Source: Exiguobacterium marinum DSM 16307 | GTDB taxonomy: Bacteria > Bacillota > Bacilli > Exiguobacteriales > Exiguobacteriaceae | Direction: 5' to 3' | Length of the DNA: 64,000 nt | NCBI RefSeq assembly: GCF_000620845.1 | Contig: NZ_KK211189.1 | Coordinates: 2,263,878-2,327,877 of the forward strand | In this document: positions 3,154-61,546 of the stretch, one piece after another | Layout of the letters: every line of letters starts with the position of its first letter | How positions within the stretch are numbered: position 1 is the stretch's first letter | The notes under the pieces: model-generated | What the model saw: only the letters and a program-made list of their open reading frames with translations | Databases searched by the model: none | Told to the model about the DNA's origin: nothing | Program-made: the position numbers and the translations under genes

Positions 3154-3165
3154 TTACAAAAAAAT

Positions 3166-3362: not shown

Positions 3363-3368
3363 GATTTA

Positions 3369-3397
3369 ACTATAGCGCTTCTATAAAAAGAAGTCAA
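3369..3397 (-). promoter_or_regulatory. Promoter of the 6S RNA gene
   Basis: TTGACT (3392-3397) and TATAGT (3369-3374) on the reverse strand are exactly 17 bases apart, a near-consensus sigma-A promoter. Predicted transcription start is near 3362. Confidence 0.8.
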
Positions 3398-3428
3398 TGA
3401 GAAACACCGACTTCTCGTGACAGTTTCG

Positions 3429-45521: not shown

Positions 45522-45962
45522 TTACAAACCCGGTTGGAGCGGGATGAGTAACATCGCCCCGTAGAAGAAGACCGAGAAAATCAATACTGGTCGAAAGAAG
45601 CGGGACGGTTTCAGGCGTGTCGCTCCCGCCAAAAAGCTCGATGTCGTCACGACGAAAAGGTAGATGCCGACGTACATGAGCATGAGGCGGACGAGTACCG
45701 TCCACATGCCGAGTTGGTCGATTTCATTAAAAGAGAGCACAATAAGACCAATATAAGCGATGAGCGATAGAGCACCGACCCCGATGCCGACAAGCGGTGA
45801 GACACGGTCGAGCCAATGGTCCTCGTCGAACCGAAGGAAGAGCACCGTACTTACAAATAAAAACAAGATAAACAGGACAATCGAGAAAAGTGTCGGTTCT
45901 AAGTGTATGTAGCTGACGAATAGTGACATCCCGATCATCAAAACCCAAATGATTTTTTCCAT
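45522..45962 (-). CDS. Membrane protein of unknown function
   Basis: Protein of 146 residues with about five hydrophobic spans (IWVLMIGMSLFVSYIHL, FSIVLFILFLFVSTVLFL, VGIGVGALSLIAYIGLIVL, LMLMYVGIYLFVVTTSSF, PVLIFSVFFYGAMLLI). No family motif recognised. Base usage resembles the chromosome. It lies on the reverse strand upstream of mreB and has its own terminator, so it is a separate unit from mreBCD. Confidence 0.75.
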   Translation of the reverse strand: MEKIIWVLMIGMSLFVSYIHLEPTLFSIVLFILFLFVSTVLFLRFDEDHWLDRVSPLVGIGVGALSLIAYIGLIVLSFNEIDQLGMWTVLVRLMLMYVGIYLFVVTTSSFLAGATRLKPSRFFRPVLIFSVFFYGAMLLIPLQPGL

Positions 45963-46026
45963 AAAAACACCTCGTTTGTTTTCTAATCAAAATCCAGATT
46001 CGATTAGAGTAAACTACGTTCCTTGA

Positions 46027-46857
46027 TCACAACTTTTTCAGTGCGGCAAGAATAGATTGTTGTATCAGATCATGCCGCTGCTCTTCATTTAAACGGACAT
46101 ACAGACTCTTCAAAAATGTTTTCACATTATGCACGACGCACCAAAATTTTTCCTCATCAAGATCTTGTTTACGTTCTTCTAAGAGATGTGGGAGCCGCTC
46201 CACATGACGAAGGATGATTTCAGAATCCATCCCTCGTTCGAGTAAACGTAGAATGGGATGGATAAGGCGTTCGTCTTCATCATGCGCCAACACCTCAGAA
46301 CGCATGATTTGATCGATGATGACGTTGAAGAGTTGCGGAAATGACTCTGGATCCAGTTTCGGATTTGCGATCAGTTCGTCCACCGCGTCTGCCGCGTGAG
46401 CAATCGAGTGGGCCCACCCCTTCCCGTTGACATAACCTCTTGTATCTTTTTCGAGCTGAAGATATCGAATCAGACCTTCTGACGCCTGCTGGAATTGTTC
46501 ATCTGTCAAAAAGTTCTCTTCTACATCCCGATGCAGAATCAAGGCCATCAATAAAGTCGTGAATGCTCTCGTGAAGACAGCGTCAGACTGTGTTTCTTCA
46601 ATCCCATGAAACAAGAGAACATGCAAGGACGTCCCAAGGAGTTCACTCATCTTGTCGTAATCGATGTCTTTTTGTTCAATGATGAGGCGAAAGAATATCG
46701 TATAAATGAGTCGGTCACGGAGTTCGCCGTCCGTTGACTCGATATGCTGAACCATACTTGTGAGAATGGCTTCTTTGTTTTTTTCGTAATACGTTAAATC
46801 TCCATCTTTCATCATCTGAAGGGCTTCTTTTAATTCGTTTTCCGACAATACATTCAT
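46027..46857 (-). CDS. DUF2785-like protein
   Basis: Soluble, all-helical-looking protein of 276 residues. The stretch RGYVNGKGWAHSIAHAADAVDELI near 150 (GWAH..AH.AD) resembles the motif of DUF2785 proteins, whose function is unknown. The start ATG is preceded only by a weak purine-rich stretch. It is single, between two small membrane protein genes. Confidence 0.7.
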   Translation of the reverse strand: MNVLSENELKEALQMMKDGDLTYYEKNKEAILTSMVQHIESTDGELRDRLIYTIFFRLIIEQKDIDYDKMSELLGTSLHVLLFHGIEETQSDAVFTRAFTTLLMALILHRDVEENFLTDEQFQQASEGLIRYLQLEKDTRGYVNGKGWAHSIAHAADAVDELIANPKLDPESFPQLFNVIIDQIMRSEVLAHDEDERLIHPILRLLERGMDSEIILRHVERLPHLLEERKQDLDEEKFWCVVHNVKTFLKSLYVRLNEEQRHDLIQQSILAALKKL

Positions 46858-46929
46858 ATTCCTACACCGCTCTTCTCAATATGATTCTCCATATAATCTT
46901 TAGCCAAATGACAGTATAAATAGCGCTGT

Positions 46930-47127
46930 TCATTCAGGCCTTTCATTCGGATGTTGTGATGACTCTTCTTCTCCGGAATAGATCATCCACAAACTCAACA
47001 TCAAACAAATCAATCCGCCCAGACCAGTCGTAATCAAGGACAATTGCTCATCAAAAAATGCTTTACTGACTGCTAAGAAAAGGAGAAACAGCCAACCAAT
47101 CAAATTCCATATCGTAATTCGCGACAT
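46930..47127 (-). CDS. Small two-span membrane protein, unknown
   Basis: A 65-residue product with two hydrophobic segments (NLIGWLFLLFLAVSKAFF and LITTGLGGLICLMLSLWMIY) and an acidic tail. The ATG at 47127 is seven bases after AGGAGG, a convincing site. No family recognised. Confidence 0.65.
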   Translation of the reverse strand: MSRITIWNLIGWLFLLFLAVSKAFFDEQLSLITTGLGGLICLMLSLWMIYSGEEESSQHPNERPE

Positions 47128-47149
47128 TCGATAACCTCCTATGAACAAA

Positions 47150-47251
47150 CTTATTCATCATTATTTCTGCTCTCTTCAAATTCTACATCTCCATTCACAT
47201 TTTTCCAACTATATCCAAAATTTAATGAGGTGCCAGTGCTCTCGTAAACAC
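47150..47251. other. Non-coding gap before the radC remnant
   Basis: About 100 bases, AT-rich, no credible frame seen. The region past it to 47660 holds the radC remnant and then 175 bases of AT-rich DNA without a recognised feature. Confidence 0.5.
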
Positions 47252-47484
47252 AAAAAGCAGACATCACGATGCCTGCTCTCTACTCCTTACCCATTCATAT
47301 ATCCCCGCTGCTTCATGCTGACGTAATGGTCTTCCCCGATGATAACATGGTCGAGACAGGCGATGCCGACGATATTGCCCGCCTCACAGAATACATCACG
47401 AGGGTGTACGATGGAGGAGTTGAGCCCACCGACGAAGAGCGTCTTCCGGGCAATCAGTTGGTTCTTCGTATTCAAATACAGACA
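47252..47484 (-). repeat. Left copy of the radC 3'-end repeat flanking the island
   Basis: Direct-orientation match to 57864-58201, beginning at AAAAAGCAGACATC and ending at the shared CAAATACAGACA. It includes the radC terminator hairpin (47256-47277). About 105 bases, exactly 35 codons, are missing relative to the intact copy; several single-base differences exist. Confidence 0.85.
47287..47484 (-). pseudogene. radC: Orphan radC 3' fragment with in-frame deletion of the JAMM motif
   Basis: Reading the reverse strand gives [26 protein letters not shown], then directly [20 protein letters not shown] and QRGYMNG-stop. The intact RadC has 35 more residues after PRDVF, among them HNHPSGDATPSREDIE, the metal-binding JAMM motif. 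The reading frame is otherwise kept open. The 5' part of the gene is absent. It is most likely the original chromosomal end displaced by island integration. Confidence 0.85.
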
Positions 47485-47660
47485 TCTGAACTAGATATAA
47501 ATACTATAATCACATTTACTTTCGTTCACTATCTTCATATTAAAATTAAATATTTTTGAAGTGGCGCGACAAACTCTTAAATAGAGTTCTTACTTATGAT
47601 GTATCATACCTTCTTTTAACGATATAGACACATGACGACTTCTTCCTAGAGCATTATGCT

Positions 47661-47930
47661 TTGTATGACGTGATGATATTGGAGATTTTTAGATATAGCA
47701 AACCATTCCGCCAAGCAAGCGAAGAGGAACTAAACTGGATCTATACACGACTCACGACTGCTCTTGAGAGGCGAGATGTCATCTTCAGCATTGAAAAAAT
47801 CCTAAAAGGTCGAGTCTTGTTACGCGTCAGCTGTGACAGCGACCTATGTTCTGTGTACTTCAATTTCATGACAGGTCGTTTTTCACGGCCGATAGATTTG
47901 TCTGTTCCTGAAAAAGACATTGCCCAATAA
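47661..47930 (+). CDS. Small orphan ORF, unknown
   Basis: An 89-codon frame (from a TTG; the first ATG is at 47673), product with EEELNWIYTRLTTALERRDVIFSIEKILKGRVLLRV, a mixed helical-strand pattern. No good ribosome site. It ends just before the broken endolysin terminator. It might be a phage remnant or a chance frame; no family recognised. Confidence 0.35.
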   Translation: MYDVMILEIFRYSKPFRQASEEELNWIYTRLTTALERRDVIFSIEKILKGRVLLRVSCDSDLCSVYFNFMTGRFSRPIDLSVPEKDIAQ

Positions 47931-48017
47931 AAAAGGCCCCACTCGTTTTGAAATGCTCCCCGATAGGTAGACAGATGAAATAACAAATCTGTTTATTCTA
48001 TTGGGGAGTGTTTTTTT

Positions 48018-48691
48018 ATGGCGAGAAGTCGGCATTCGATCGAACAAAAACTGAGTGCGCTGCGCATGATAGAAGCAGAGACATACACATGGAAGGAAAT
48101 TATGGAGGCCCATGACGTTTCTAAGGATGCCCTCCGGGTGTGGAAAGTGAAATTCGATACCGGTGGGATTGATGCGTTGAAGGAATCGAAGACATGGAAA
48201 CTGTACACCAAGGAACAGAAGCTCGCGGCCGTCCGTGACTATCTCGATGGGTTCACTAAAATGGAGGTTCTCTCCAAACATCAAATCAGTGATTGGTCTG
48301 TTCTTCGGAGATGGATTAAGAAGTATACTAGTCATAGCGAGTTAACAGATTCGAGAAAAGGGATGGATCGAGCTATGGCAAAAGGGAGAAAGACCACATT
48401 CGAGGAACGCATGGAGATCGTCAGGTATTGCCTGGACAATGGACGGAACATCAACGGACGGCCGAGATGTTCGCCGTGTCGTATCAACAGGTCTATGGGT
48501 GGACGAAAAAATATGACGCCGACGGCGTGCACGAGCTCGAGGACCGGCGTGGACGGACGAAGCAAGAAGAGGAACTGACCAACGAGGAGAAGCTCGAACG
48601 TCGCATCCAACAAATCGAGCGGGAGAACGAGCGCCTCCGGGCCGAGAACCTGTTCCTAAAAAAGTTAGAGGAGATCGAGAGGAGAGGTTGA
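48018..48691 (+). pseudogene. IS3-family transposase OrfA, frameshifted
   Basis: Residues up to the stretch MEIVRYCLDNGRN (near 48440) are in one frame, with a first helix-turn-helix region (SIEQKLSALRMIEAETYTWKEIM, ...DALRVWKVKF) and a second (KTTFEERMEIVRYC). The remainder, QRTAEMFAVSYQQVYGWTKKYDADG and the leucine-zipper-like KLERRIQQIERENERLRAENL, is in the next frame. One missing base around 48443-48446 explains both halves. The IS is probably not autonomous unless the shift is suppressed. Confidence 0.82.
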
Positions 48692-49587
48692 TCAGCCAGA
48701 TCCGGCTACAATTGCGTTACATGGCGATCGAGGAAATGTCGACAACCGATACGTTCCCGGTCGTGCTCCTGTGTGAGATCGCGCAGGTTTCACGGGCCGC
48801 CTACTATAAATGGTTGAAGCGTACCGTCTCGGTACGCGAGGAGGAGAACATGAGCCTACTGGAGGACATCCGCCTCCTCTATGATCAGGTGAACGGGACC
48901 TACGGCTATCGACGGATCACCATGACGGTCAACCGCAGACGACGTCAGCATGGCCTGCCGGCATACAACGAGAAGCGCATCTATCGTCTCATGCGCATCC
49001 ATGAGATCCGTTCGGTCATCCGCCCGAAGCGAAAACGGTACAAAAAGTCGTCCCCGCAGCATGTGGCCGAGAACCTGATGAACCGGGAATTCAGTGCGTC
49101 CCGACCTGACGAGAAATGGTGCACCGACGTCACCGAGTTCAAATATGGCGCCGGGAAGAAGGCGTATCTGAGCGCGATCATCGACCTCTATGACGGCTCG
49201 ATCGTCGCCTATCGCATCGGGAAATCTAACAACAACGCGCTCGTCTTCCAGACGATGATGCCAGCGATCGCGGGGCTCCGTACAGGAGCGGGTCCGATGA
49301 TCCATAGTGACCGAGGATATCAATACACATCGAGAGGGTTCAGTCGCATGGTAGAAGATGCGGGGCTGACCCACAGCATGTCCCGGGTCGGACGTTGTCT
49401 CGACAACGCCCCGATCGAGAGCTTTTGGGGTACCCTGAAAGTCGAGATGTACTACCTGCGTGAGTTTCAGGCCTATAGCGAACTCACGTCGGCCATCGAG
49501 ACCTACATATCATTCTACAACCATGACCGTTTCCAGAAACGGCTAAACGGCTTGAACCCTGTCGAATACAGGTCTCAAGCCGCCTAG
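48688..49587 (+). CDS. IS3-family transposase OrfB
   Basis: DDE integrase of 299 residues. The HTH_21 region (LLYDQVNGTYGYRRITMTV, KRIYRLMRIHEIRS) precedes the catalytic core: WCTDVTEFKYG (first D), IHSDRGYQYTS (second D), and SRVGRCLDNAPIESFWGTLK (E in a DX35E-type arrangement). It overlaps the end of orfA by four bases; in this family the two are joined by programmed frameshifting. The frame is complete. Confidence 0.92.
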   Translation: MISQIRLQLRYMAIEEMSTTDTFPVVLLCEIAQVSRAAYYKWLKRTVSVREEENMSLLEDIRLLYDQVNGTYGYRRITMTVNRRRRQHGLPAYNEKRIYRLMRIHEIRSVIRPKRKRYKKSSPQHVAENLMNREFSASRPDEKWCTDVTEFKYGAGKKAYLSAIIDLYDGSIVAYRIGKSNNNALVFQTMMPAIAGLRTGAGPMIHSDRGYQYTSRGFSRMVEDAGLTHSMSRVGRCLDNAPIESFWGTLKVEMYYLREFQAYSELTSAIETYISFYNHDRFQKRLNGLNPVEYRSQAA

Positions 49588-49655
49588 TTTGGTTTTCATT
49601 ATTTGCCCTGTCTACTTGACGGGGAGCAGTTCAGTTTGAGTGGGGCTTCGTGCGT

Positions 49656-50288
49656 TCAGATGCCTTTTGACTTGATGACCTTGCCATTGAGCTCAAGCGT
49701 CGTCTTGTCGTCCGGTTGCACCCAGGCACCTGAAGCAATTGCATGATTAAACGTCTGCTTGTAGCCGCGTTTTCCTGTTGTATCAACCTTGAACACATCC
49801 ATAGGATTCAAGGTTGAATCGCGCCCCGCCTTCCAGATGTTCGACGAACGGAATAATGTTGGTGAGTACGTAGGATAGTCGATATCTGTGTCGAGCTCGA
49901 TGTGTAGGTGAGGCGAACCGCCATAACGTCCGGTAGATCCGTAGTCGGCAATCTTTGCATTTTCCGGTACGACGACATCCCCGACCTTGACGTAAACCTC
50001 AGCAAGGTGCGCCATGCGGACCACGAGGCGACGCGCACCTTTCTTCGACCCATAGAGGACGTCAACTGGATTCTCACTGATAGCGATGACGCTACCGCCC
50101 ATGAGTGTGTCATTTCCAACAGCAGTGACTTTCATTTTGAAAGGAGCATATACACTCAAATCTTTACGTTTTAGATCCGCCATATCAATCCCAAAGTGCT
50201 GAAATTCCATCGCTTTATGACAAGTGGGATTTTTGTATCCAGCGATGATGCGAGCATTGTTCAGTAACAATATAGCTTTCTCAATCAT
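49656..50288 (-). CDS. M23-family phage endolysin / metallopeptidase
   Basis: Protein of 210 residues without a signal peptide. LytM/M23 features are HFGIDMA near 32 (HxxxD zinc pair), MAHLAEVYVKVGDVVVPENAKIADYG, and GRYGGSPHLHIEL near 122 (HxH). It likely cleaves cell wall cross-links in phage release. Its start overlaps the holin stop by four bases, the usual lysis cassette order. Its terminator is split by the IS. Confidence 0.8.
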   Translation of the reverse strand: MIEKAILLLNNARIIAGYKNPTCHKAMEFQHFGIDMADLKRKDLSVYAPFKMKVTAVGNDTLMGGSVIAISENPVDVLYGSKKGARRLVVRMAHLAEVYVKVGDVVVPENAKIADYGSTGRYGGSPHLHIELDTDIDYPTYSPTLFRSSNIWKAGRDSTLNPMDVFKVDTTGKRGYKQTFNHAIASGAWVQPDDKTTLELNGKVIKSKGI

Positions 50289-50815
50289 TTGTCTTCCTCC
50301 TTTGTAACTATAACTTCCTTCTCAGCTAATTCCTTATCAATAAGAACCTCTCGGCTGACCGGCTTGACTTGTTCGTCCTCTGGTGCCACGTCCTGTGCAA
50401 TACGGTCAACGGTCGGCTCTGGTTTGTCGCCCTGTAACTGCGCGAGGACATCGACCAATTGTTGCGGAAGTGGCACACCTAGAAGCGCGCAGTTCTCGGT
50501 GACTGACAAACCTTTTCGAGCGATATAGTAATAGATCACGAGTGTACGCAGAACAGGCATCGAGTTATTCAACATCTCGTCTGCGAGAACAGCAACGATG
50601 ATAACAAAAAAGACAACACCCTTCCGGATGCCCCCTCAAAACATAACATCGCTATTTATTTTTTTATACTTGGCTGCGGCAAGAAATCCTGTCATATAAT
50701 CTATGACGATTAGTGTGACGAGCAGTTTAATCGCCACATCCCATCCCCCTAATAGAGCGGTGACTCTCGTCGCGATTATTACGACGATTCCCTCTGCGAA
50801 TTGTTGTGTGCGCAT
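50285..50815 (-). pseudogene. Phage holin gene with an in-frame stop
   Basis: A single frame of 176 codons interrupted by TGA at 50633-50635. The first part (MRTQQFAEGIVVIIATRVTA, WDVAIKLLVTLIVIDYMTGFLAA) and second part (GVVFFVIIVAVLADEMLNNS, LVIYYYIARKGLSVTENCALLGVPLP) together match the toxin secretion/phage lysis holin family. The neighbouring second copy reads FEGGIHK here, where this one reads F-stop-GGIRK (GAG GGC replaced by TGA GGG). The ATG at 50815 follows GGAGG. Probably broken. Confidence 0.8.
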
Positions 50816-51007
50816 AACGCGCCTCCTTTTCGGGATCTTGGCAGGTTGCATACACTGAGTGAGCCCCTTTGCATTAGTATGAATTACTCCATGAGAAAAG
50901 GCGCCGATAGAACGACGCCGAAACAAAATGAATTTATTAACATTGTTTAAAATATCTTTTAAACATAAACTTAATTGAGGTGTATAGTTGACAGCTTTTT
51001 GTAGAAT

Positions 51008-51283
51008 TCATCCTATTCTAATAAAAATGCCGTCGCTTTTTTCGATCTTCTCAACATCTTCTCTGCTCTTTTTACCTTCTGGCAAGATTTTCAGAAGTTC
51101 AGTTTGTACATAAATTATTTCCTGCTCAGATAAAACTTTTGGCTTTTCAATCTCTAGATTCGCTCCTTTTAAAAAAGCCAACATTTCACTTCCTTTCAAA
51201 TATCCAAATAACTTCAAGGTATAGATACTATCTTCTTCAAATTCAGCATAATGCACCGCGAACAATTCCCGGTCAGAATACAT
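51008..51283 (-). CDS. Unknown 91-residue acidic protein
   Basis: Frame with an AAAGGTG site and ATG at 51283. The product begins MYSDRELFAVHYAEFEEDSI and has EKPKVLSEQEIIYVQTELLKILP near the middle, mostly helical and charged, no cysteine, no membrane span. It sits between the two holin copies on the same strand. AT-rich. No family recognised. Confidence 0.5.
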   Translation of the reverse strand: MYSDRELFAVHYAEFEEDSIYTLKLFGYLKGSEMLAFLKGANLEIEKPKVLSEQEIIYVQTELLKILPEGKKSREDVEKIEKSDGIFIRIG

Positions 51284-51410
51284 CTGATTTCACACCTTTC
51301 TTTAGACTTCTGTTCGATATTTTATATTCGATTATAAATGCAGTAGTCCTTCTCTTTTGTAAATAGATTATGTTATTTAAAGGATTTGTTCATAATTTCC
51401 GGCAAATAAC

Positions 51411-51743
51411 TCAATACCGCTGTCGACAAGGTACCGATACACTTGTGATTTCAGTGATAATTAGTCCCACTCGTGCAATATAGCAATAGATGACTAGTGT
51501 CCATAAAACAGACATCGAATTATTAATCATCTCATCTGTGAAGACAGCAACAATGATTACAAAAAAGACGATATCTTTATGGATGCCGCCCTCAAACATG
51601 ACATCTCTATTTAGTATTTTATGGTTGGCTGCGGTGAGAAGCCCTGTCATATAATCTATGATGACGAGTAGTTTAATCGCCACATCCCATCCCGCTAATC
51701 GAGAGATGACGACGGCTCCTTATGTTGTTTGTTGTGTACGCAT
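51411..51743 (-). pseudogene. Second, decayed holin copy
   Basis: Homologous to the holin at 50285-50815: ATGCG(T/C)ACACAACAA start after GGAGGCGC, then an early TAA (MRTQQTT-stop), a readable middle (WDVAIKLLVIIDYMTGLLTAANHKILNRDVMFEGGIHKDIVFFVIIV) and a diverged, shortened C-terminus ending VPCRQRY. Compared with the first copy it lacks several codons near the N-terminus. A duplicated and degraded lysis gene. Confidence 0.75.
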
Positions 51744-51860
51744 GATGCGCCTCCTTTTCGGAGTCGTGAAAGATTGTATCCTCTATGTGATCCCCTCATA
51801 ATAATCATTAATGAATAAACTTTGATGTATGGCCAGTCCATATTAGGAGGAGATGTTTTA

Positions 51861-52523
51861 ATGAAATTTAATAAAGCAAACTTACACAGACTCGATAATG
51901 ATATCTCGAATAATATTTTAGAATCGGCAGTTCAAATGATACCTATCGTTGGTGGTCCCATAGCAACACTGGTCTTCGGGAGTCTTCGCGACATTCAAGC
52001 TAGACGCCTAGAGGATTTCCTTCATCAAATTTCAGCAGAAATCAATCAAGTAAAAATCCAATTTGTTGATTTTTCTCTTCATGATGAAGATAAATTAGCC
52101 GCGCTGTTAGAAGACCTCTTTGAAAAAGTTAGTAAAGAACCTCTTAAAGAAAAGCTACATTTTTTTAAATTATACTTTTTCAACATGTTACTTACTCCAA
52201 CAGATACAAATTATGATGAAAGAAGATATTTTTTGCAGTGTCTTGAAAACATGAATCTAATGGATTGTAGAGCCGTGCTTCATTTAAATGAATTCAAAGA
52301 ACCAGTAAGTTCATATGATTTGAACATTGATGGAATATCACAATATAAACTCACTGGTTCATTAAACCGTTTGAAACATTACGGTTTTGTGACTACATCT
52401 TCAAAAGGAATGACTTTCGGCACAACTAATAAAGAATTAGATGGAGATGTTGAAGTCAACTCATACGGTAAAGACTTCATCGATTTTTGTTTAACCGAAT
52501 CAAAAAAAGCATCTGCAACATGA
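51861..52523 (+). CDS. Unknown 220-residue AT-rich protein, possible moron or defence gene
   Basis: The only forward gene inside the phage remnant, with a TTAGGAGGAG site and ATG at 51861. Residues 10-50 (LESAVQMIPIVGGPIATLVFGSLRDIQARRLEDFLHQI) look like an amphipathic or membrane-touching glycine-rich hairpin. Residues 60-130 are helical and the C-terminal third (ISQYKLTGSLNRLKHYGFVTTSSKGMTF) resembles a winged-helix pattern. Low GC relative to neighbours and monocistronic. No family recognised; function not assigned. Confidence 0.65.
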   Translation: MKFNKANLHRLDNDISNNILESAVQMIPIVGGPIATLVFGSLRDIQARRLEDFLHQISAEINQVKIQFVDFSLHDEDKLAALLEDLFEKVSKEPLKEKLHFFKLYFFNMLLTPTDTNYDERRYFLQCLENMNLMDCRAVLHLNEFKEPVSSYDLNIDGISQYKLTGSLNRLKHYGFVTTSSKGMTFGTTNKELDGDVEVNSYGKDFIDFCLTESKKASAT

Positions 52524-52582
52524 CACTTATTTAATAAGATGACTAGCCTCTGGATGAAAAAATACCATTTAGCTACGTGAAG

Positions 52583-52865
52583 TTAAATTTGTTCTTCAAT
52601 CAGCAATTTTTTGTAAGTCATCGTCTCGTCAAACTCTTGCGTCGTGATGTACGTCAGTTCAAGCGCTAAGAATGTCCGTGTCCGAATAGTTCTCTCCGGC
52701 GTACTTCTTGACGTGTGAAACGTACTCTTGACGGATTTCAGGGAAACGGCGTGTTCCGTCCTTATAGATTGCTTTTGCGTAGGCGATTACGAGCGATTGA
52801 TAAAAAGGAAATTAAAGTGATCGGCAAGTTGGTGGCCGTTATGTCGCCGCCGGACTTTAAGTTTT
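52583..52865 (-). pseudogene. Phage tail gene debris
   Basis: Reverse-strand reading gives LKSGGDITATNLP, the sort of C-terminal seen in tail proteins, then IVIAYAKAIYKDGTRRFPEI and EYVSHVKKYAGENYSDTDIL, then, after a frame change near 52663, LELTYITTQEFDETMTYKKL and a stop at 52583. The second piece resembles small XkdX-like phage proteins found before the holin. Identification rests on pattern memory only. Confidence 0.5.
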
Positions 52866-52915
52866 GAGCACTATTATAAAAAGTAATGATTCTAGAAAAT
52901 TTAAATATTAAGCAG

Positions 52916-52967
52916 AGTCAAAAAGTGTTGGATGCCCTCTATAATGGGTTTCCAATATTTTTTGACT
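52916..52967. repeat. 17-bp inverted repeat with 18-base loop
   Basis: AGTCAAAAAGTGTTGGA (52916-52932) and TCCAATATTTTTTGACT (52951-52967) pair at 15 of 17 positions, the other two as wobble pairs. The loop has CCCT...TGGG. It may be a transcription hairpin, an IS end remnant (the right-hand sequence recalls ISL3-type ends) or an operator. Confidence 0.55.
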
Positions 52968-53133
52968 TCGATTTAATGAATTGAACAATCTTGAGCACAA
53001 TCCACATTGTATTAACCTATTTGTTGAACAATACGCAAATGTGAACATTTTATTTGGTATTATAGCTCTTAGAGAGGTTCCACTCTATTTCATAATATAG
53101 TGCTGCATATTCTACTTCATTGGGGGAAAAATA

Positions 53134-54012
53134 ATGAACAGAGATGGAAAAGTTATTTCGTTTATAAATATGAAAGGCGGAGTTGGAAAAACAACATTAT
53201 GTATCGAACTAGCCGATCAAATATCTAATAGACAAAAATCAGATGGATCAAACTATAAGATATTATTAATTGATATTGATCCACAGGCTAATTTAACTCA
53301 AGCTATAAATGAACATTTTTATCCTGCCGATGAGGATATTCCTACGAAATCTATTGAACTTCTTTTTAATAAAAAGCCAATGGGATTCAAGCCAGAAGAT
53401 ATAATTGTAAGTCTACCTAACGAAAACTTGGATTTGATTCCAGGTGAGTTGGAAACAGTATTTTTAGAGAGAGCAAGTGGAAATTCAACTAGTCAAAAAC
53501 TAATGGATTTTATTCTGGATTACAAAATAAAAGAATCATACGATTTAATAATTGTAGATTGCCCACCTACATACTCAATTTATACCGAGATGGCTTTTTT
53601 CGTTAGTGACTACTATTTTATACCGGTAATTCCTGATAAATATTCATTGTTAGGTGTGGATTTGCTAGAACGTGTAGTTTCCGACATTATTTTAAACAAT
53701 AAAAACTCCATATTTAAGGAAAAGGTACCACAAAATATCGGAGTAATTTTTACCAGAGTGAATGTGAAAGAAAAGCCAAAACAAGAAAATTACATGAATG
53801 CTCTTAAGTCATCTCCTCTTGCTAAAGCAAAGAATCTATACATTTTCCCTGAGCATTTTAAAGAATCTAATAAATTGTCTACATTTGAACTTGGAAAGTT
53901 AGTATCTGACACTGAAGATCAACGTTTACAAAAAATGATGGACAACATATGCGATGATTTTTTAGCAAGAATTGATAGCTTTAACAATCCTACATTGGAA
54001 GGAGACGATTAA
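53134..54012 (+). CDS. ParA-family ATPase of a three-gene operon
   Basis: ATPase of 292 residues with deviant Walker A FINMKGGVGKTTLCIELA near residue 10, Walker A' LLIDIDPQANLTQAI near 48, and Walker B DLIIVDCPPTYSIYTEMAFF near 130. It is close to plasmid ParA/Soj ATPases, yet no ParB or replication gene is present. The ATG follows TTGGGGGAAAA. AT-rich, unlike the chromosome. The next gene starts one base after its stop. A role in partition of an element or in defence cannot be told. Confidence 0.85.
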   Translation: MNRDGKVISFINMKGGVGKTTLCIELADQISNRQKSDGSNYKILLIDIDPQANLTQAINEHFYPADEDIPTKSIELLFNKKPMGFKPEDIIVSLPNENLDLIPGELETVFLERASGNSTSQKLMDFILDYKIKESYDLIIVDCPPTYSIYTEMAFFVSDYYFIPVIPDKYSLLGVDLLERVVSDIILNNKNSIFKEKVPQNIGVIFTRVNVKEKPKQENYMNALKSSPLAKAKNLYIFPEHFKESNKLSTFELGKLVSDTEDQRLQKMMDNICDDFLARIDSFNNPTLEGDD

Positions 54013-54013
54013 A

Positions 54014-54433
54014 GTGAATAATTATCTCGATAAGAAGATACAAAAACTTTCTACTGACAAAGATGAAATTCAATTAAAAATGGATTTATACAGTACAATG
54101 ATCCCTTTTTTATTATCTACTGATAATTTTAGTAGGAATAATGAAATCAAAGATTTTACTAACCGATTAAAACTAAAAGAAGAAATGAAAGATTACTTAT
54201 TTGCGAGTAGAACTCAAGTAGCAGGTCGTATAGTTAGGGAAATAGAAGATTTTAATGAAATTCAATTAAAAGAAAACATTCAAATCTTTAAAGCTTATAA
54301 TAATTCCAAGATAAATAATATAAGTGAGCAGTCTAATCGAAATGTTTCAAGGAAAAATAAGAATAAAGCAGAAGAAAAAATACTTAAAATGATGGATAAA
54401 TACAGTAGAAATAAGGATAGTATAGATGAATAG
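54014..54433 (+). CDS. Charged helical protein, second gene of the ParA operon
   Basis: 139 residues from a GTG at 54014, nine bases after GGAG. Rich in Lys, Glu, Asn, without hydrophobic spans; stretches such as LKLKEEMKDYLFASRTQVAGRIVREIEDFNEIQLKENI suggest long helices or coiled coil, and the C-terminal third is basic (SRKNKNKAEEKILKMMDKYSR). It could bind DNA or the ParA partner. It ends eight bases into the next gene. No family recognised. Confidence 0.7.
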   Translation: MNNYLDKKIQKLSTDKDEIQLKMDLYSTMIPFLLSTDNFSRNNEIKDFTNRLKLKEEMKDYLFASRTQVAGRIVREIEDFNEIQLKENIQIFKAYNNSKINNISEQSNRNVSRKNKNKAEEKILKMMDKYSRNKDSIDE

Positions 54434-55106
54434 AGATCGACGAATTCGAAAAGATTTTGAAAGTTACCAGAATTTTTTGAATGAATATTTTCCGAAATTC
54501 AATTCAATAGAAGAAGATTTATATGACTTTTATTCGTATGTAAATAACACATTTGTTTTATGTGATTTACTTATCGAACATAATAAAGTTGATAAAAGTA
54601 ACAACTACTTTAACCTTATTATTGAGTATAGAGAGTTTTATGCGCGGTTACTAACGACAGTTGCAATAAACGATAAATTTTTGATTGAAAACATTTTGAG
54701 GATAATAATCGAAAAAATTTACAGGATTCTTTTTGGAATATTAAAAGACAAAAAAATTGAACGAACTATTCGTAAAGAATCTCGTGAAAAAATGAAAAAA
54801 ATATTGGAAGGAACTATTGAAATCAGTAGATTCGAGTCGTTAAATAATTTATATAACGACTATTCTCAAAAGGTTCATCATACAGATTCTGTTCCTACTG
54901 ACTATTATGATCTTACTAAACGCTTAGAATATAAGGAACATTCTTTGAGAGAATTTATTAAAAGCATGGAAAAAATAGAGAAGATTTTTTTACATGAAGT
55001 TTTTTTAGTTTTGTCGCCTGATAGTGAAAAAGAAGAAACTTCATATAGAATGAAAATTCGAAACAATACTTCTGATTATATAATTAACACTCTAAATCTG
55101 AACTAA
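54426..55106 (+). CDS. Helical unknown protein, third gene of the ParA operon
   Basis: 226 residues, all-helical appearance. The N-terminal half (LYDFYSYVNNTFVLCDLLIEHNKVD...YREFYARLLTTVAINDKF) is hydrophobic-amphipathic; later LYNDYSQKVHHTD near 155 resembles the Y..YS..VH segment of some HEPN-like helical proteins, only a hint. The frame overlaps the second gene by eight bases, so translation is coupled. No family recognised; no catalytic motif is certain. Confidence 0.72.
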   Translation: MNRDRRIRKDFESYQNFLNEYFPKFNSIEEDLYDFYSYVNNTFVLCDLLIEHNKVDKSNNYFNLIIEYREFYARLLTTVAINDKFLIENILRIIIEKIYRILFGILKDKKIERTIRKESREKMKKILEGTIEISRFESLNNLYNDYSQKVHHTDSVPTDYYDLTKRLEYKEHSLREFIKSMEKIEKIFLHEVFLVLSPDSEKEETSYRMKIRNNTSDYIINTLNLN

Positions 55107-55258
55107 TTCTGAAACAGCAACATCTACTATTCAGTAAATTTCTACAAACCCGTCTGACTTTCTCTGCATATATTCTGATAGAGTACTCATGATTACAAAA
55201 AAGCAGACCGTAATAAGAAAGATGAAATTAATCTAAATCACTTAAATAAAAGCAAACA

Positions 55259-55286
55259 AAAACCACCTTTTAATGGGTGGTTTTTG
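55259..55286 (+). terminator. Terminator after the ParA operon
   Basis: AAACCACC-TTTTAAT-GGGTGGTTTTTG; A and T tracts on both sides. Confidence 0.8.
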
Positions 55287-55424
55287 TGCATCAATAGTTG
55301 CATATTTAATTTTACTTTAAAAAATTTTATTTTTACCCATTTCCTATTATTTTAAACTGTTGACTTTATCCACAGAAATAATCTATATTTAAGGTGCTCA
55401 TATACCAAGTTGTATAAGGAGACA

Positions 55425-55459
55425 CCGCTCATCGAATATCGAAGGGCGGCCTTTTTTTT
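55425..55459 (+). terminator. Second terminator-like hairpin
   Basis: CCGCTC pairs with GGGCGG (one G-U) around ATCGAATATCGAA, then CC and eight Ts. It lies just before the convergent DUF3800 unit. Confidence 0.5.
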
Positions 55460-55465
55460 GTGAAT

Positions 55466-56074
55466 TTAAAAAGGTGATTTCTTAAATTTAACATAATCTT
55501 TGTCAAACTGTTTAGCTGAGTCAACGTAAAATACAGGATATGCTGCAACAAGTATATAATTATCACTTTTTGAGTTAAAACGTAAAATGATAATGTAATC
55601 AATGTCAAGCTCATGATCTACAAAACGAATGAACTCTCTGGTCTCCCATTTGTTACTTCTTTTATTTTTTATTTTTTTCTTAAATTGCATAACCCTTGGA
55701 TCACCAGTATTACAAAGTGATAGAATAGCTTCTGTAAAATTTATTCTATGGGCTCTGTAAGTACATAACTTCCTTTCTCCTAATCCTCCTTTTAAATCTA
55801 CTTTAAAGGCCTCAGTATCACAGTTTGTGGGACATATTCTTTTTGATTCACATCTTGTACAAGGTAACACTTTAAATGTTTCACCTAGTCCAAGCGAGAC
55901 CAAATGCCAAAATTCACTTTCTCTTCCTAGTATTAAATGTTCGTGTCTTAAAATGACTTTTTTCCCGTTAAAAATTAATCCTTTACTTTTTAAACTCCGA
56001 AAATATTCGTATATGCGGTCAAAATTTTGATGAAAATCAGTGCTTGAGACAGGAATAATTTCAAAATTACTCAT
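55466..56074 (-). CDS. Partner gene of the DUF3800 protein, unknown (nuclease-like C-terminus?)
   Basis: 202 residues from the ATG at 56074, which overlaps the stop of the upstream DUF3800 gene. The middle has a cysteine group, PCTRCESKRICPTNCDTE near 80, that may bind zinc. The C-terminus (WETREFIRFVDHELDIDYIIILRF...YILVAAYPVFYV) recalls BECR-type RNase folds (barnase/EndoU/colicin-like) in its strand pattern and the AYP end; this is weak inference. AT-rich. Possibly toxin or effector paired with DUF3800. Confidence 0.65.
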   Translation of the reverse strand: MSNFEIIPVSSTDFHQNFDRIYEYFRSLKSKGLIFNGKKVILRHEHLILGRESEFWHLVSLGLGETFKVLPCTRCESKRICPTNCDTEAFKVDLKGGLGERKLCTYRAHRINFTEAILSLCNTGDPRVMQFKKKIKNKRSNKWETREFIRFVDHELDIDYIIILRFNSKSDNYILVAAYPVFYVDSAKQFDKDYVKFKKSPF

Positions 56075-56784
56075 TCCTTTACCACCGTTCCTCTCGGAGT
56101 CCAAACAAAACGATTAAATTTCTTCTCCCTAATCGATGTTGTTGTGATTAAAGAAGTAGAAATATAACTTTCGATATATGAGATGAGTTCTTGTTTAGCA
56201 TCGCTAGTTTTCATTTTTCTAGATTTGTAACTACACGCGCCTATAAATAAATCGCACAACTGCAAAAGTTCACTTTCGTTCGACCTAATTTGTACCATAT
56301 CCTTGATTTTATATGTGGAAGTAAAATAACGTGGATTATTTTTAATAATTTTATTTAATGTATTTAATTTTTCTCCGCCATGAGTATCCTTAATATCCAG
56401 AAAAAATCTATATTCATGTTTATCTTCCATTAAATTATTTAATAACAAATAATACATTTTATAAAACCAAGTATCATGATCGCTATCATTAAATTTTTCA
56501 TGATCTAATTCTTTTTTTCCATTAGCAATTACAACCCTTAGATATAAATCCTCGTGTTGAAAAAAATAATCCACTAATTCCTTATACATTTCAATCTTAC
56601 TTGGAGAAACTTTCACCCATTTAATTTCCGACCACGATGAGACTCCATGCTTAGACTTTATAGAACGAATATTAGAATAGTGCAGAGTTTTATTATCCTC
56701 TTGACATTGAATTGCTCCTAAAACCATTGAGTCAAACCCATCATTTTGAATATGACAGCTTTCATCACAGAAAACTAATTTCAT
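56071..56784 (-). CDS. DUF3800 protein (RNase H-like fold)
   Basis: 237 residues. DUF3800 hallmarks: KLVFCDESCHI at the N-terminus (Asp-Glu-Ser), VVIANGKKELDH, RFFLDIKDTHGGEKLNTL near 128 (second Asp), and ESELLQLCDLFIGACSY near 175 (third Asp), a likely metal-dependent RNase H-like active site. Members occur in phages and accessory islands; activity is unproven. The ATG follows GAGAGGG. First gene of a two-gene unit. Confidence 0.78.
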   Translation of the reverse strand: MKLVFCDESCHIQNDGFDSMVLGAIQCQEDNKTLHYSNIRSIKSKHGVSSWSEIKWVKVSPSKIEMYKELVDYFFQHEDLYLRVVIANGKKELDHEKFNDSDHDTWFYKMYYLLLNNLMEDKHEYRFFLDIKDTHGGEKLNTLNKIIKNNPRYFTSTYKIKDMVQIRSNESELLQLCDLFIGACSYKSRKMKTSDAKQELISYIESYISTSLITTTSIREKKFNRFVWTPRGTVVKE

Positions 56785-57054
56785 AAGAAAACCCTCTCAT
56801 TTAGATAATCATAATCCTAGTCTATATATTAAAATTAATTATTTTTACGTCATTAATTATTTATTATCGTTTATTAATAAAACAAGGGTACTACAAATTT
56901 ATGATTAGTACAATTTAAGTTATCGATTACATTTAATAACCATTTTCCAATATATTTTTCCCTTAATATAACATATATCATTTATACCTAATTCTTGAAA
57001 ACTAAATTCAAATGAGTAGTAAATTTTATATAATATTTTAAAGGAGGTTTCGGG

Positions 57055-57863
57055 ATGAGTGAAAAACGAATAGGACTCTATATTAGAGTTTCGACAGAAG
57101 AACAAGCTGTTGAAGGCTACTCTATTTCAGGTCAGCGTGAACGCTTAAAAGCATTTTGTGTCGCACAGAGTTAGGAAACGATTAAATTTTATGTGGATGA
57201 AGGGATCTCTGGACGTTCCACAGAGCGCCTAGCACTAAAGAAAATGATGAAAGACATCGAGGATGGGTTAATTGATGTACTACTAGTGTATCGACTTGAT
57301 CGACTTACTAGAAGTGTTCGTGATTTACACGACATTTTGGATTTCCTTGAGAAACACAACTGTCAATTCCGTTCAGCAACAGAAGTCTATGATACCTCGA
57401 CAGCTATGGGCAGAATGTTCATTACCATCGTAGCTGCTATAGCCGAATGGGAATCCGCGAACTTAGGTGAGCGAGTAAGACTCGGGCAGATTGAAAAAGC
57501 AAGACAAGGTGAATGGTCCGCTCCCGCTCCGTATGGCTTCAGAAAGAACAATCAAAAACGCCTGGAAGTAAATCCAGACGAGATTGAGGTCGTAAAACTA
57601 AAAGCACATAAGGTTAAAGAGTGTAACAGCTTCCATCAACTATTGATGTATATGTAAAATATGTCCTTCAAGCTGCGAAAATCATATAATTGGCAGATTT
57701 CATCTCTCCTAGACTATTTCATAAACATAATTCATTATGGTGGCTATAAAATTGAACGATGAAGTCTAAAAGGTGCTTAAGAACGAACTTTGACCAAAGG
57801 AGATTTTGTGCAGCTACAAAACATCAACTTCAGGGAAAAACAAATTGTAAAACCGTACAAATT
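57055..57863 (+). pseudogene. Large serine recombinase, decayed
   Basis: Reading from the ATG at 57055 after AAAGGAGG: MSEKRIGLYIRVSTEEQAVEG (catalytic Ser near 13), YSISGQRERL, a TAG at 57172-57174 (codon 40, likely from Trp), then VDEGISGRSTERLAL, YRLDRLTRSVRDLHDIL, EWESANLGERV and GEWSAPAPYGF. Further stops occur at codons 201, 236 and 242, yet the frame stays readable (YFINIIHYGGYKIER, ERTLTKGDFVQLQNIN) up to the radC repeat. The normal C-terminal end is missing. It was probably the integrase of this island. Confidence 0.85.
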
Positions 57864-58201
57864 AAAAAGCAGACATCACGATGCCTGCTCTCTACTCCTC
57901 ATCCATTCATATATCCCCGCTGCTTCATACTGATATAATGGTCCTCCCCGATGATGACATGGTCGAGACAGGCGATGCCGACGATATTGCCCGCTTCGAC
58001 CAACCGTTCAGACACCTCGATGTCTTCCCGACTCGGGGTCGCGTCCCCGCTCGGATGATTGTGAACGGCGATAAAGCACGCCGCCGACAACTTGAGCGCC
58101 TCGCGGAACACATCGCGCGGGTGCACGATGGACGAGTTGAGCCCACCGACGAACAACGTCTTCCTCGCGATGAGCTGATTTTTTGTGTTCAAATACAGAC
58201 A
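57864..58201 (-). repeat. Right copy of the radC 3'-end repeat (part of intact radC)
   Basis: Matches 47252-47484, includes the terminator hairpin AGCAGGCATC-GT-GATGTCTGCT (57868-57889) followed by TTTTT on the reverse strand and the last 100 codons of intact radC. The shared end CAAATACAGACA (58190-58201) is a candidate recombination core. Confidence 0.85.
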
Positions 58202-58528
58202 GACGAAATGTTCTTGATTCAACAGTCTCAATTCATCCCGCAACAACTCATACGCGTCTTGCGGTGAACGAATCGTCGGCATACTCACTTTCGGTTCCTC
58301 GACGTACCGAATCCCAATCGTAAACGCGGCCAGGAGTTGCTCCGCTTTCTTCTTCGTCATCCCTTCGATTTTGCACAAATCGTGGACGGACGCTTGCGAT
58401 AACGCCCGTAACGTCGGGTACACGTCTGAGATGCGGCGTGCCGTCTCCATCGGATCAGGTCCCCGTCCCCCGATTTGAAGCAATCTGGCGATGGCGGTCT
58501 CTACACTACGATCAAGCACCATGGTCAT
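57899..58528 (-). CDS. radC: RadC/MPN-JAMM domain protein
   Basis: About 209 residues. An HhH-like N-terminal region (DLCKIEGMTKKKAEQLLAAF) is followed by the MPN+ domain with FIAVHNHPSGDATPSREDIE (JAMM zinc motif). Its role in repair is disputed; function unknown. Possible starts are the ATG at 58528 (AGGTGAAGGA), the ATG at 58522 or the GTG at 58552 overlapping the maf stop. Here the 3' part adjoins the recombinase remnant, so it may have come from the island. Confidence 0.9.
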   Translation of the reverse strand: MTMVLDRSVETAIARLLQIGGRGPDPMETARRISDVYPTLRALSQASVHDLCKIEGMTKKKAEQLLAAFTIGIRYVEEPKVSMPTIRSPQDAYELLRDELRLLNQEHFVCLYLNTKNQLIARKTLFVGGLNSSIVHPRDVFREALKLSAACFIAVHNHPSGDATPSREDIEVSERLVEAGNIVGIACLDHVIIGEDHYISMKQRGYMNG

Positions 58529-58548
58529 TCCTTCACCTACTTTCAAGT

Positions 58549-59133
58549 TCACAGGAAGCGAGGCGTCACCCCATGCCGTTCGAGCGTCTTGACGAGCGGA
58601 TGGATCGGTAAGCCGACGACATTATAAAAATCCCCTTCGATTCCTTCGACGAAGAGACCACCCGACCCTTGGATGCCATACGCGCCAGCCTTATCGTAGG
58701 GCTCTGTCGAATCCAGATAATCTTCTAGCCATGTTTCAGGAATCTCGGCGAACGTCACATGCGTCGTCGTGACGAATAAATCTTGAGTCGCACCGATGAT
58801 GCTCACACCCGTCAGCACTTCATGGGTCGAACCGGATAATCGTTCAAGCATCCGTTTCGCATCCTCCCGGTCTGTCGGTTTCTCTAAAATGACGCCATTC
58901 AAAACGACGACCGTATCTGCACCGATGACGATGGCATCCCGGTGATGCCTCGCCACATCCATCGCTTTCTCTCGAGCGAGACGAGCTACATAATCATCCG
59001 GTGTCTCCCGACCGTCCGTCCCTTCCGTCACGGTTGATGGGATGACCTCATGTTCGATTCCTGCTTTCGTCAATAGCTCGGTGCGTCGTGGTGACATCGA
59101 CGCGAGAATGACACGCTTCTGTGTTGAATTCAT
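58549..59133 (-). CDS. maf: Maf nucleotide pyrophosphatase
   Basis: 194 residues. Begins VILASMSPRRTELLTKAG, with VIGADTVVVLNGVILEKP near 70 and EPYDKAGAYGIQGSGGLFVEGIEGDFYNVVGLPI near 145, the house-cleaning NTP pyrophosphatase motifs (dTTP/UTP type in Bacillus). Next to radC and the mre locus, and near a prepilin peptidase, as in Bacillus (comC-maf-radC). Confidence 0.96.
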   Translation of the reverse strand: MNSTQKRVILASMSPRRTELLTKAGIEHEVIPSTVTEGTDGRETPDDYVARLAREKAMDVARHHRDAIVIGADTVVVLNGVILEKPTDREDAKRMLERLSGSTHEVLTGVSIIGATQDLFVTTTHVTFAEIPETWLEDYLDSTEPYDKAGAYGIQGSGGLFVEGIEGDFYNVVGLPIHPLVKTLERHGVTPRFL

Positions 59134-59235
59134 TGTATCGACTCCTTCTCTTCTTCTAAAACGGGGTTCCTTCCCGTTTCATTCTTCTCTGTTGATTGTA
59201 GGCAACGTGCCTCTTGAACACAATCATCCGTGGCG

Positions 59236-59268
59236 AAAAAAACGTCCCCTCAATTGAGAAGGGACGTG
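59236..59268 (-). terminator. Terminator of the pilus gene cluster
   Basis: ACGTCCCTTCTCAATTGAG and GGGACGT pair on the reverse strand before seven Ts. It lies between pilO and maf. Confidence 0.8.
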
Positions 59269-59273
59269 GCGAC

Positions 59274-59981
59274 TCATGGTGTCGTATAGTCGTATACCGG
59301 GATATCCTTTTGCTCGAACGCCGGTTCCGGAATGTAGCGATCTGGAACGAGCTGATCGAGGTCCGGACGATAGAAGGCATCGAGCTCGACTGTAAACTCG
59401 AGCGACTGCACTTCTTCAATCGTATTCGGTCCCGTCTCAGCGGGTCCGGTGAATTGGACCGTCCGCAACACGTGAATCCGATTCATCGACTCGATTGACT
59501 CGAGGAACGAGACGAGCGCTTCATACGTCTCTGCTTGCAGGTTGACCGTCGAACGGACCGTAGATGCGTTGACCGGGGCAACATCCGTCGGTTCAGCCGG
59601 TTCGTTCGTCGCACTCACATCAGCCGGATTGAACGGCTCGACCGTTTCTGGTACTTCTGACTCGGCTACCACGCCATCCGCGAATGCGATGCTCGTCACG
59701 TTGACACCCGCAAGAAGACTTGCCTGTGACAACGCTTCGACGACCGTGTCGAGAGCAGGCATCGTCGGAACGCGTGTCTGAAGCGTCTGAGAGTCCGCTA
59801 CGTCAACGGCCTTCCCTTCTTGACGCAACAACTCCAGTTTTGTCTGCTCGAGCGAGAGGTCGCGTTCAAGCGCTTCGACCTCACCTTGTTTGACGTAATA
59901 CGTATATCCGAAGTAAGCCGGTGCGATGATTGCGACGAGGAGGCAAATCGCAAATAACGCATAGATTGTCGAACGTTTCAT
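59274..59981 (-). CDS. pilO: PilO-like type IV pilus inner-membrane protein
   Basis: 235 residues: short tail, one span (IYALFAICLLVAIIAPAYFGYTYY, about 6-29), a coiled-coil stretch (VEALERDLSLEQTKLELLRQEG), and a ferredoxin-like domain (LQAETYEALVSFLESIESMNRIHVLRTVQF). An Ala/Pro/Glu-rich linker lies near 110-135. It forms the PilM-N-O alignment complex. Its start overlaps the upstream pilMN stop by four bases. Confidence 0.78.
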   Translation of the reverse strand: MKRSTIYALFAICLLVAIIAPAYFGYTYYVKQGEVEALERDLSLEQTKLELLRQEGKAVDVADSQTLQTRVPTMPALDTVVEALSQASLLAGVNVTSIAFADGVVAESEVPETVEPFNPADVSATNEPAEPTDVAPVNASTVRSTVNLQAETYEALVSFLESIESMNRIHVLRTVQFTGPAETGPNTIEEVQSLEFTVELDAFYRPDLDQLVPDRYIPEPAFEQKDIPVYDYTTP

Positions 59982-61546
59982 TGACTCACCACCTCCTCAT
60001 TCGTGTCCTCTTCTTCCGTCAATTCTTCCTCTACGTCCTCGAACATGAACGTGAACTCGCCGATATAGCGTGGGAGCGGGTCCTCTTCGAGCGAGTTCGG
60101 TTCTTCTACATCTACATCCGCTTTCAACTCCGTCGTCACACCGAGGAGATTGACGTCGAGGAAGCGCTCGTCGGTCATGAGCGAGCGTTGGAATTCATTT
60201 AAATTCTCTAACGTCTCGAACTGAGTCCGTACGCTCATGATGGAACCGTCTGCGTAGTTATACGTCAAGACGTAACCCGTCGGCGGCAATTGTTCGGTCA
60301 ACGCGCGCAGTGCCGGCACCGCGTCCTTCTCCATGTCGGTCAACGCCGTCACGGTTTGGTCGAGCGAGACCACTTGCTGCGCTTTCGAATTCACCTGTTC
60401 GGTTTGATAAATTTGAACGAGCTGTAACTCTTCTTCGATTCGCATCTGTTCTGCTTCCAACTGGTCAACCTCATAGTACAAGTACCCGGCCGCCCCACCT
60501 CCGAGAAGAAGCGCGACGAGTCCCGTCACGATCGGCCAGCGGAGCGTCACATCGGTCGAGTTGATGAAGTTCGTATCCCGATCCCTCTGAAGCGTCGCCA
60601 TCCCGAGGAGTGGGAGCATTTGATGCGATAACGGTGTCGCATGCACGATGGCGAGCGGTTGCTCGATACGCGTCACTGAGACGAGTGACTCTGACTGAAT
60701 CATACGGACGAGGTCATCTACCTCAGGGACGGTACCGGAAACGTATAATTCATCGATGGCCCGTCCATCTGTCCGTAGCGAATAACGATAGAAGTCGAGG
60801 AAACGGGCGAGTTCGTTCAGCCAGTCATCCAGTTGATTCGCCTTCATCTCGCCTGAACCATCATATGTATACGTCACGACCCCGTCTTTCGTCCCTACCT
60901 GATACGGAAGATCCAATTCAATGGAACGAATGAAACGAATTTGTCCTTCTTCGAGCACGAGCAACTGATGCGAAAATGGCGTGATATGCCAAAGAAGCGT
61001 CGACTGGAACGGGTCGATCTCCGACAAGCGCATGACCCCGTTGGCGACCGCGACGGAACGTGGTGTGATCTTCTTCAAGGCGAGACCACGTTTTTTCATA
61101 TAAGAACGGAGCGACTTCGTCAATTCAATAGAGACGGCATGTAACATGACGTCCGTCTTGACCCCATCTTCTCCTAACACTTCATAGTCGAACGACACGT
61201 CATCGAACGGCAAGATGATCGAGCTCCCGATTTCCATGAAGAGATAACCGCGAATCTCGTCCTTCGGAATCGAGGAAGGAATCTCGACTTTCCGTGACAA
61301 CACCTCGGTCTCGTCTAACGCGACCGCACACGTCATCCCGCGTCGTACTTTCAACTTGCGACAGAGTTCATCGAAGGCGAGCGTGAACGCCGTCTCATCG
61401 AGAATCTTTCCTTCTCCGTATGTATCTTTTGCTAACTGAACCGAGGCGCTTCGTTTGAACACCCCTTGTTTGATAACGGCCCCGTGAATGCTGAGCGCAT
61501 CAAACGAAAAATACGCGACCGTCCCTTTCTCTATCCCACGACTCAT
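59978..61546 (-). CDS. PilM-PilN fusion protein
   Basis: 522 residues. Residues 1-320 show the actin-like PilM domain (VAYFSFDALSIHGAVIKQG; SSIPKDEIRGYLFMEIGSSI; ALKKITPRSVAVANGVMRL), then a PilN-type region: FINSTDVTLRWPIVTGLVALLLGGGAAGYLYY (one span, about 345-365), coiled coil, and a small domain (TGYVLTYNYADGSIMSVRTQFETLENLNEFQRSLM). In most bacteria PilM and PilN are separate; here they are in one chain. It anchors the pilus assembly platform. Confidence 0.8.
   Translation of the reverse strand: MSRGIEKGTVAYFSFDALSIHGAVIKQGVFKRSASVQLAKDTYGEGKILDETAFTLAFDELCRKLKVRRGMTCAVALDETEVLSRKVEIPSSIPKDEIRGYLFMEIGSSIILPFDDVSFDYEVLGEDGVKTDVMLHAVSIELTKSLRSYMKKRGLALKKITPRSVAVANGVMRLSEIDPFQSTLLWHITPFSHQLLVLEEGQIRFIRSIELDLPYQVGTKDGVVTYTYDGSGEMKANQLDDWLNELARFLDFYRYSLRTDGRAIDELYVSGTVPEVDDLVRMIQSESLVSVTRIEQPLAIVHATPLSHQMLPLLGMATLQRDRDTNFINSTDVTLRWPIVTGLVALLLGGGAAGYLYYEVDQLEAEQMRIEEELQLVQIYQTEQVNSKAQQVVSLDQTVTALTDMEKDAVPALRALTEQLPPTGYVLTYNYADGSIMSVRTQFETLENLNEFQRSLMTDERFLDVNLLGVTTELKADVDVEEPNSLEEDPLPRYIGEFTFMFEDVEEELTEEEDTNEEVVSQ

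Follow-up and report, generated by a model that had tools for sequence, protein, structure and literature searches.

The question raised by this locus, found in a 64,000-nucleotide stretch of the Exiguobacterium marinum DSM 16307 genome (the window), is whether a ParA-type ATPase encoded together with two helical proteins belongs to a DNA-partition locus or serves another function. The evidence detailed below indicates that this gene trio is most likely an undescribed immunity or addiction module encoded by prophages, and not a partition locus.

A coupled gene trio in a decayed prophage

The three genes are the following.

53134 to 54012 (+): gene 1, ParA/Soj-type deviant-Walker ATPase (PHROG 164), 292 aa, ATG start
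54014 to 54433 (+): P2, helical protein (PHROG 6264), 139 aa, GTG start
54426 to 55106 (+): P3, all-helical putative effector (PHROG 7540-type family), 226 aa, ATG start

The ORF coordinates and the base composition agree with the first-pass annotation, which described an AT-rich, co-oriented three-gene set. The GTG start of P2 lies one base past the ParA stop codon (a 1-base gap), the P2 and P3 genes overlap by 8 bases, and the GC content at the trio is 0.26-0.31 (1-kb bins) versus about 0.50 over most of the window. The same annotation attributed to the trio a terminator of its own. One terminator-like hairpin is present downstream, and this attribution is plausible and is put no higher because the hairpin is near-symmetric, is reported on the minus strand by the scan, and belongs to a class of which about 0.8 sites are expected by chance. 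The surroundings of the trio comprise the following features.

47252 to 47385 (no strand): left copy of a 134-bp duplication, remnant 3' radC
55256 to 55287 (no strand): terminator-like hairpin separating the trio from the convergent PDC-M04 pair
55466 to 56104 (-): PADLOC candidate-defence protein PDC-M04B, a neighbour outside the trio (E 1e-39)
56071 to 56784 (-): PDC-M04A / DUF3800, a neighbour outside the trio (E 2.7e-81)
57055 to 57657 (+): serine integrase of the surrounding element, broken by an in-frame stop at 57172 and truncated in its 3' part
57864 to 57997 (no strand): right copy of the same 134-bp sequence, located at the radC end and sharing 94% identity with the left one

The trio had been placed in an integrated island. 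The element is indeed integrated, and it can be specified as a prophage remnant with radC as its insertion site. An element of about 10.5 kb occupies radC, from about 47386 to 57863, between the two copies of the duplication, both of which extend into the 3' part of the gene. This conclusion is drawn from the 134-bp duplication and from the uninterrupted radC of a same-genus locus (L108), in which radC and its neighbour are contiguous and constitute the empty site: positions 1-1596 of that locus match window positions 45800-47385, and positions 1463-3651 match window positions 57864-60052. The element is bordered on its left by a remnant 3' radC fragment (window 47252-47484 and 57864-58201). 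In three other genomes of the genus (G002, G005 and G006), radC appears split or duplicated, and these partial second copies suggest that radC is a recurrent insertion site in the genus.

The element carrying the trio is a decayed prophage in which the trio is still open. It contains a gene for an M23 endolysin and, as judged by eye, an IS3-like transposase and holin-like small ORFs that are apparently duplicated. The holin-like region has the appearance of a tandem duplication (50516-50868 and 51471-51796), with blocks 79%, 90% and 74% identical and one copy degraded. Just upstream of the trio, a 233-aa ORF (51822-52523, +) with the hydrophobic stretch IPIVGGPIATLVFG belongs to no family and could be another accessory gene. 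On the other side, the PDC-M04A/PDC-M04B pair (55466-56784, -), which belongs to this decayed prophage as well, is intact and oriented towards the trio. A 464-aa serine recombinase resembling the broken integrase of the window is encoded directly after the trio in a viral contig (L006, 7056-8447).

ParA and the partition question

The product of the first gene matches AAA_31 at 8e-35, Soj in the PDB at 7e-30 and, more weakly, the PrgP-like segregation ATPases at 4e-20. KGGVGKTT and D142 are invariant in the ParA proteins of the trio, and the deviant Walker A motif and the catalytic aspartate of the ParABS ATPases are both present. All 42 ParAs match PHROG 164, which is named ParA-like partition protein.

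The likeness to ParABS lies in this ATPase with its KGGVGKTT deviant Walker A motif. The trio differs from ParABS by the lack of a nearby ParB, by its two conserved helical partners and by its carriers, which are mostly integrase-bearing prophages. As first annotated, the locus is devoid of ParB and replication genes: neither was detected among the six neighbouring proteins scanned in the window. The homologous trios are not paired with ParB either, since no ParB_N domain lies near the trio in 50 viral records; it occurs in only two of them, about 45 and 53 kb away, which bears out the initial doubt about a partition locus. P2 fits none of the partition families and would be, at most, a centromere binder of a wholly novel kind. 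A contrast to the trio is provided by another contig of the same genome (C1, 39.6 kb), in which a conventional-looking ParA and a 124-aa partner are encoded at positions 1471-2690 of locus L002; this ParA is 28% identical to that of the trio.

A fixed trio travelling in prophages

ParA, P2 and P3 travel in prophages as a fixed trio whose carriers extend from Bacillota to E. coli. When viral contigs were searched with ParA as bait, 80 loci were obtained, and the order ParA-P2-P3 is kept in 76 of them (67 by automatic ORF calling, plus nine near-identical L031-type loci in which the trio has an alternative P2 start, as checked on L031). Three others (L055, L079 and L081) are cut by a contig end, and in the last one (L057) ParA is accompanied by a P3-like ORF while P2 is not clearly recognisable. 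Neighbouring genes of the trio are separated by small gaps or overlap by up to tens of bases, and the coupling of the genes is not due to chance, since the same order is found in these 76 loci; the trio thus recurs as a unit, a point singled out for verification at the outset. ParA is the productive bait for this type of search. P3 alone retrieved no relative in plasmids, viral contigs, genome contigs or 100 related genomes, and P2 alone retrieved none in plasmids or viral contigs, because both proteins diverge too fast.

The carriers include a Lactococcus garvieae phage (identified by gene order alone), a Fusobacterium vincentii record and clostridia-like genomes. In E. coli, the trio is found in chromosomes (16 of 5426 genomes contain at least 80% of the L084 query), in one record classed as a plasmid and in another record. 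Some carriers, such as L084, could be phage-plasmids. The phylum sample contributed two further genomes (L088 and L090), the distribution in this sample being sparse (three of 398 genomes).

The three genes are also inherited together. The Mantel correlations between pairwise protein distances (r of 0.77 for P3-P2, 0.88 for P3-ParA and 0.75 for P2-ParA) are all above every one of 2000 permutations. In close pairs, the dN/dS ratio of all three genes is about 0 to 0.32, which denotes purifying selection; these values being well below 1, P2 and P3 are therefore real proteins maintained by selection.

A tyrosine integrase is encoded in 38 of the 50 viral trio records, and in 21 records it is no more than 3 kb from the trio. 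Integrases and repressors head the families matched by 150 flanking ORFs. The vicinity of integrase and repressor genes is the usual location, in prophages, of the accessory genes expressed in the lysogen. The accompanying integrases belong to several PHROG families, and in many records the trio is far from any integrase. The idea of a mobilisation system, also raised initially, found no support. The flanks of the trio include restriction-methylation genes, and DUF262 and HsdM genes are located less than 5 kb from it in E. coli (L091). In the window, the trio lies next to the candidate-defence PDC-M04A/B pair; known defence-type genes are found in a minority of the flanks only.

The second and third proteins

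Profile searches, recommended for both proteins by the first-pass annotation, led to two PHROG clusters of unassigned function and to no family of Pfam, NCBIfam or PADLOC, the weak matches with E values above about 0.001 being taken as noise. The component models of PADLOC-DB 2.0.0 are not matched by the proteins of the trio, and HMMER profiles of P2 and P3 gave zero matches in the PDB.

PHROG 6264 is matched by all 42 diverse P2 proteins, and by the P2 of the window at 7e-9. This protein consists of a helical body, a linker rich in lysine and, at the C-terminus, a short helix, and its conserved features are an invariant Y61 and a near-invariant S65-R66. In most relatives the C-terminal helix contains a tryptophan, as in NDKLEKWLKGL, and from its sequence this helix could dock on a partner or on the membrane. 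HEPN and FliS chains were retrieved as structural matches of P2; these matches are weak (Z 5.6) and were left out as evidence.

PHROG 7540 is matched by 25 of the 42 P3 proteins, and the P3 of the window is too divergent to reach this model. The match of 4.7e-31 that it gives with the profile of the family is circular because this very protein sat in the alignment of the profile; its place in the family is established instead by gene position, by R92, E96, Y143, S147 and H151, and by 36% identity to the P3 of locus L004. R92, E96 and H151 are invariant in the 42 proteins, which all have [YF] at position 143 and [SC] at position 147. The corresponding signature, R-x3-E followed 30-120 residues later by [YF]-x3-[SC]-x3-H, is present in 42/42 P3 and 9/10 DUF5677 proteins and in 0/588 background sequences (ORF products of 150-350 aa from the fetched loci and the window), a result that gauges the rarity of the pattern and is no unbiased test, since the pattern was picked after viewing both families.

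The AlphaFold2 model of P3 (pLDDT 90) is nearly all helical. In VIA-align, HepT HEPN toxins rank second and third, with Z scores of 8.3 (116 residues aligned) and 8.2 (114 residues aligned); the top HepT match (Z 8.3, rmsd 3.8) is level with the background, as a designed helical bundle reaches Z 8.8. Foldseek and BFVD searches of the fold gave nothing significant. The canonical HEPN motif Rx4-6H was looked for at H151, and an arginine is at the right distance in only five of the 42 proteins. Against the HepT-like and DUF4145 HEPN families, the profile-profile scores are at or near the shuffled background. The faint HEPN-like pattern initially perceived in P3 is echoed by the high structural rank of HepT, although the canonical motif is absent and the HepT scores stay within the helical background.

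P3 was also compared with DUF5677 (PF18928). Both families have R-x3-E and then Y-x3-[SC]-x3-H, with equal spacing within the second motif, and their profile alignment scores 21.8 versus 8.4 +/- 1.3 for column shuffles and 18.1 +/- 1.5 (maximum 21.3) for shuffles of 10-column blocks. A strong claim of kinship had to be lowered because the block shuffles show one local motif carrying most of the score. The common local motif is solid; homology over the full length is no more than suggested. P3 nevertheless differs from DUF5677 in that none of the 42 proteins reaches the Pfam cut-off, and the profile similarity is barely above the block-shuffled controls. No experimentally tested function of DUF5677 was found in the literature searched. 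The HEPN-like or DUF5677-like nature of P3 is considered as a lead, short of family membership.

Comparison with known systems

The nearest precedent of the trio is a dyad of ParA/Soj and a MAE_18760-family HEPN protein, predicted to be a toxin-antitoxin system in the 2013 HEPN survey of Anantharaman et al. (PMC3710099). The ATPase was suggested there as the antitoxin, on the argument that its gene is located 5' of the helical protein gene. This dyad, which is predicted only, resembles the trio in combining a ParA/Soj ATPase gene with the gene of a helical, possibly RNase, protein, but it has two genes instead of three and no counterpart of P2 has been described for it. HEPN_MAE_28990 (PF18737), taken as the nearest Pfam model of the dyad, is matched by none of the 42 P3 proteins, and hhalign of P3 with two MAE_18760/MAE_28990 members gives a P of 0.63. 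In outline, the trio agrees with the dyad idea. MntA-HepT is comparable in its helical toxin placed downstream of a nucleotide-using regulator, and HepT ranks near the top of the structural matches of P3; its antitoxin, however, is an adenylyltransferase and not a ParA, and HepT-type toxins use the Rx4-6H motif that P3 lacks.

PHROG 164, 6264 and 7540 already contain ParA, P2 and most P3 proteins, but these are clusters without a system-level description. No description of the trio or of its PHROGs was found in the literature searched, most subscription papers and bioRxiv excepted. The initial statement that no such system was known holds for the trio itself, apparently undescribed, and must be amended for the ParA/Soj-HEPN pair predicted in 2013 and for the existing PHROG clusters. 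The trio is a widespread module that is apparently undescribed, although its general type is known.

Proposed function and alternatives

The proposal that the trio is a prophage-borne conflict module, with P3 as the effector, ParA as an ATP-dependent regulator and P2 as an adaptor that together would stop superinfection, is evenly balanced in our judgement. It is favoured on account of the fixed trio (76/80), co-inheritance, purifying selection, the proximity of integrases and repressors and the lack of a nearby ParB. The reading of P3 as the effector is based on the invariant signature, its rarity in the background and the rank of HepT. The PDC-M04 pair, the DUF262 and HsdM genes of L091, the restriction-methylation flanks and the published precedent (PMC3710099) also speak for a conflict module. 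Against it stand the missing Rx4-6H motif, HepT scores no better than those of helical bundles in general, the single local motif behind most of the DUF5677 score and the small share of known defence genes in the flanks.

In such a module, P3 would most likely act as a helical, HEPN/DUF5677-like RNase, the R, E, Y and H residues making up its active site. In the lysogen, P3 would be silenced through binding by the ATPase and by P2, the small adaptor. A superinfecting phage, or the loss of the ATPase, would alter the nucleotide state and release P3, and the free protein would arrest the cell and thereby stop the second phage. We infer the RNase activity, the formation of a complex, the ATPase switch, the adaptor role of P2 and the anti-phage outcome. 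The boldest version, a widespread three-component prophage immunity in which a ParA/MinD-family ATPase senses superinfection via its adaptor and frees a helical RNase with a non-canonical R-E-Y-H site, is put forward tentatively, as somewhat doubtful.

As the benefit under selection, defence against superinfection is favoured over prophage addiction, as far as the sequences can indicate. Addiction, in which the toxin P3 and the antitoxin ParA (with or without P2) would be selected for the retention of the prophage in the lineage and not for phage blocking, is unlikely. It would fit the position of the ATPase gene 5' of the helical protein gene, the argument already made for the ParA/Soj-HEPN dyad, and the situation of the window, in which the integrase is broken yet the trio is intact. 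Three conserved genes and the separate features of P2 nevertheless exceed the needs of a simple toxin-antitoxin pair, and the sparse distribution in the phylum sample (3/398) suggests frequent gain and loss.

Regulation or superinfection exclusion without a nuclease, acting for instance on the integrase, the repressor or DNA entry, is distinctly unlikely. The tight linkage of the trio to integrase and repressor genes is in its favour, as is the short C-terminal helix of P2 if it is a membrane or docking motif; an integrase-specific role is at odds with the variety of integrase families joined by the trio, often far from any integrase. A ParA system that would position or segregate the phage genome or some other cargo, P2 being an unusual ParB or activator and P3 a cargo adaptor, is very unlikely: ParA is a genuine ParA/Soj relative, PHROG 164 bears a partition name and a helical body with a K-rich tail is imaginable in a ParB or activator, but partition is needless for integrated prophages (38 of the 50 carriers have an integrase), ParB is absent near the trio, the invariant R/E/Y/H set of P3 resembles an active site and not a cargo surface, and the conventional-looking ParA of the same genome, on its own small contig, is only distantly similar.

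Implications

A ParA gene in a prophage is routinely given a partition annotation. If this ParA clade proves to regulate effector modules, such a misleading name would have concealed a widely transferred system of phage immunity or addiction. A function could then be assigned to PHROG 6264 and PHROG 7540, and a ParA-type switch might have a role in defence. The versions found in E. coli prophages would allow a direct study of the control exerted by a ParA-type ATPase over an effector.
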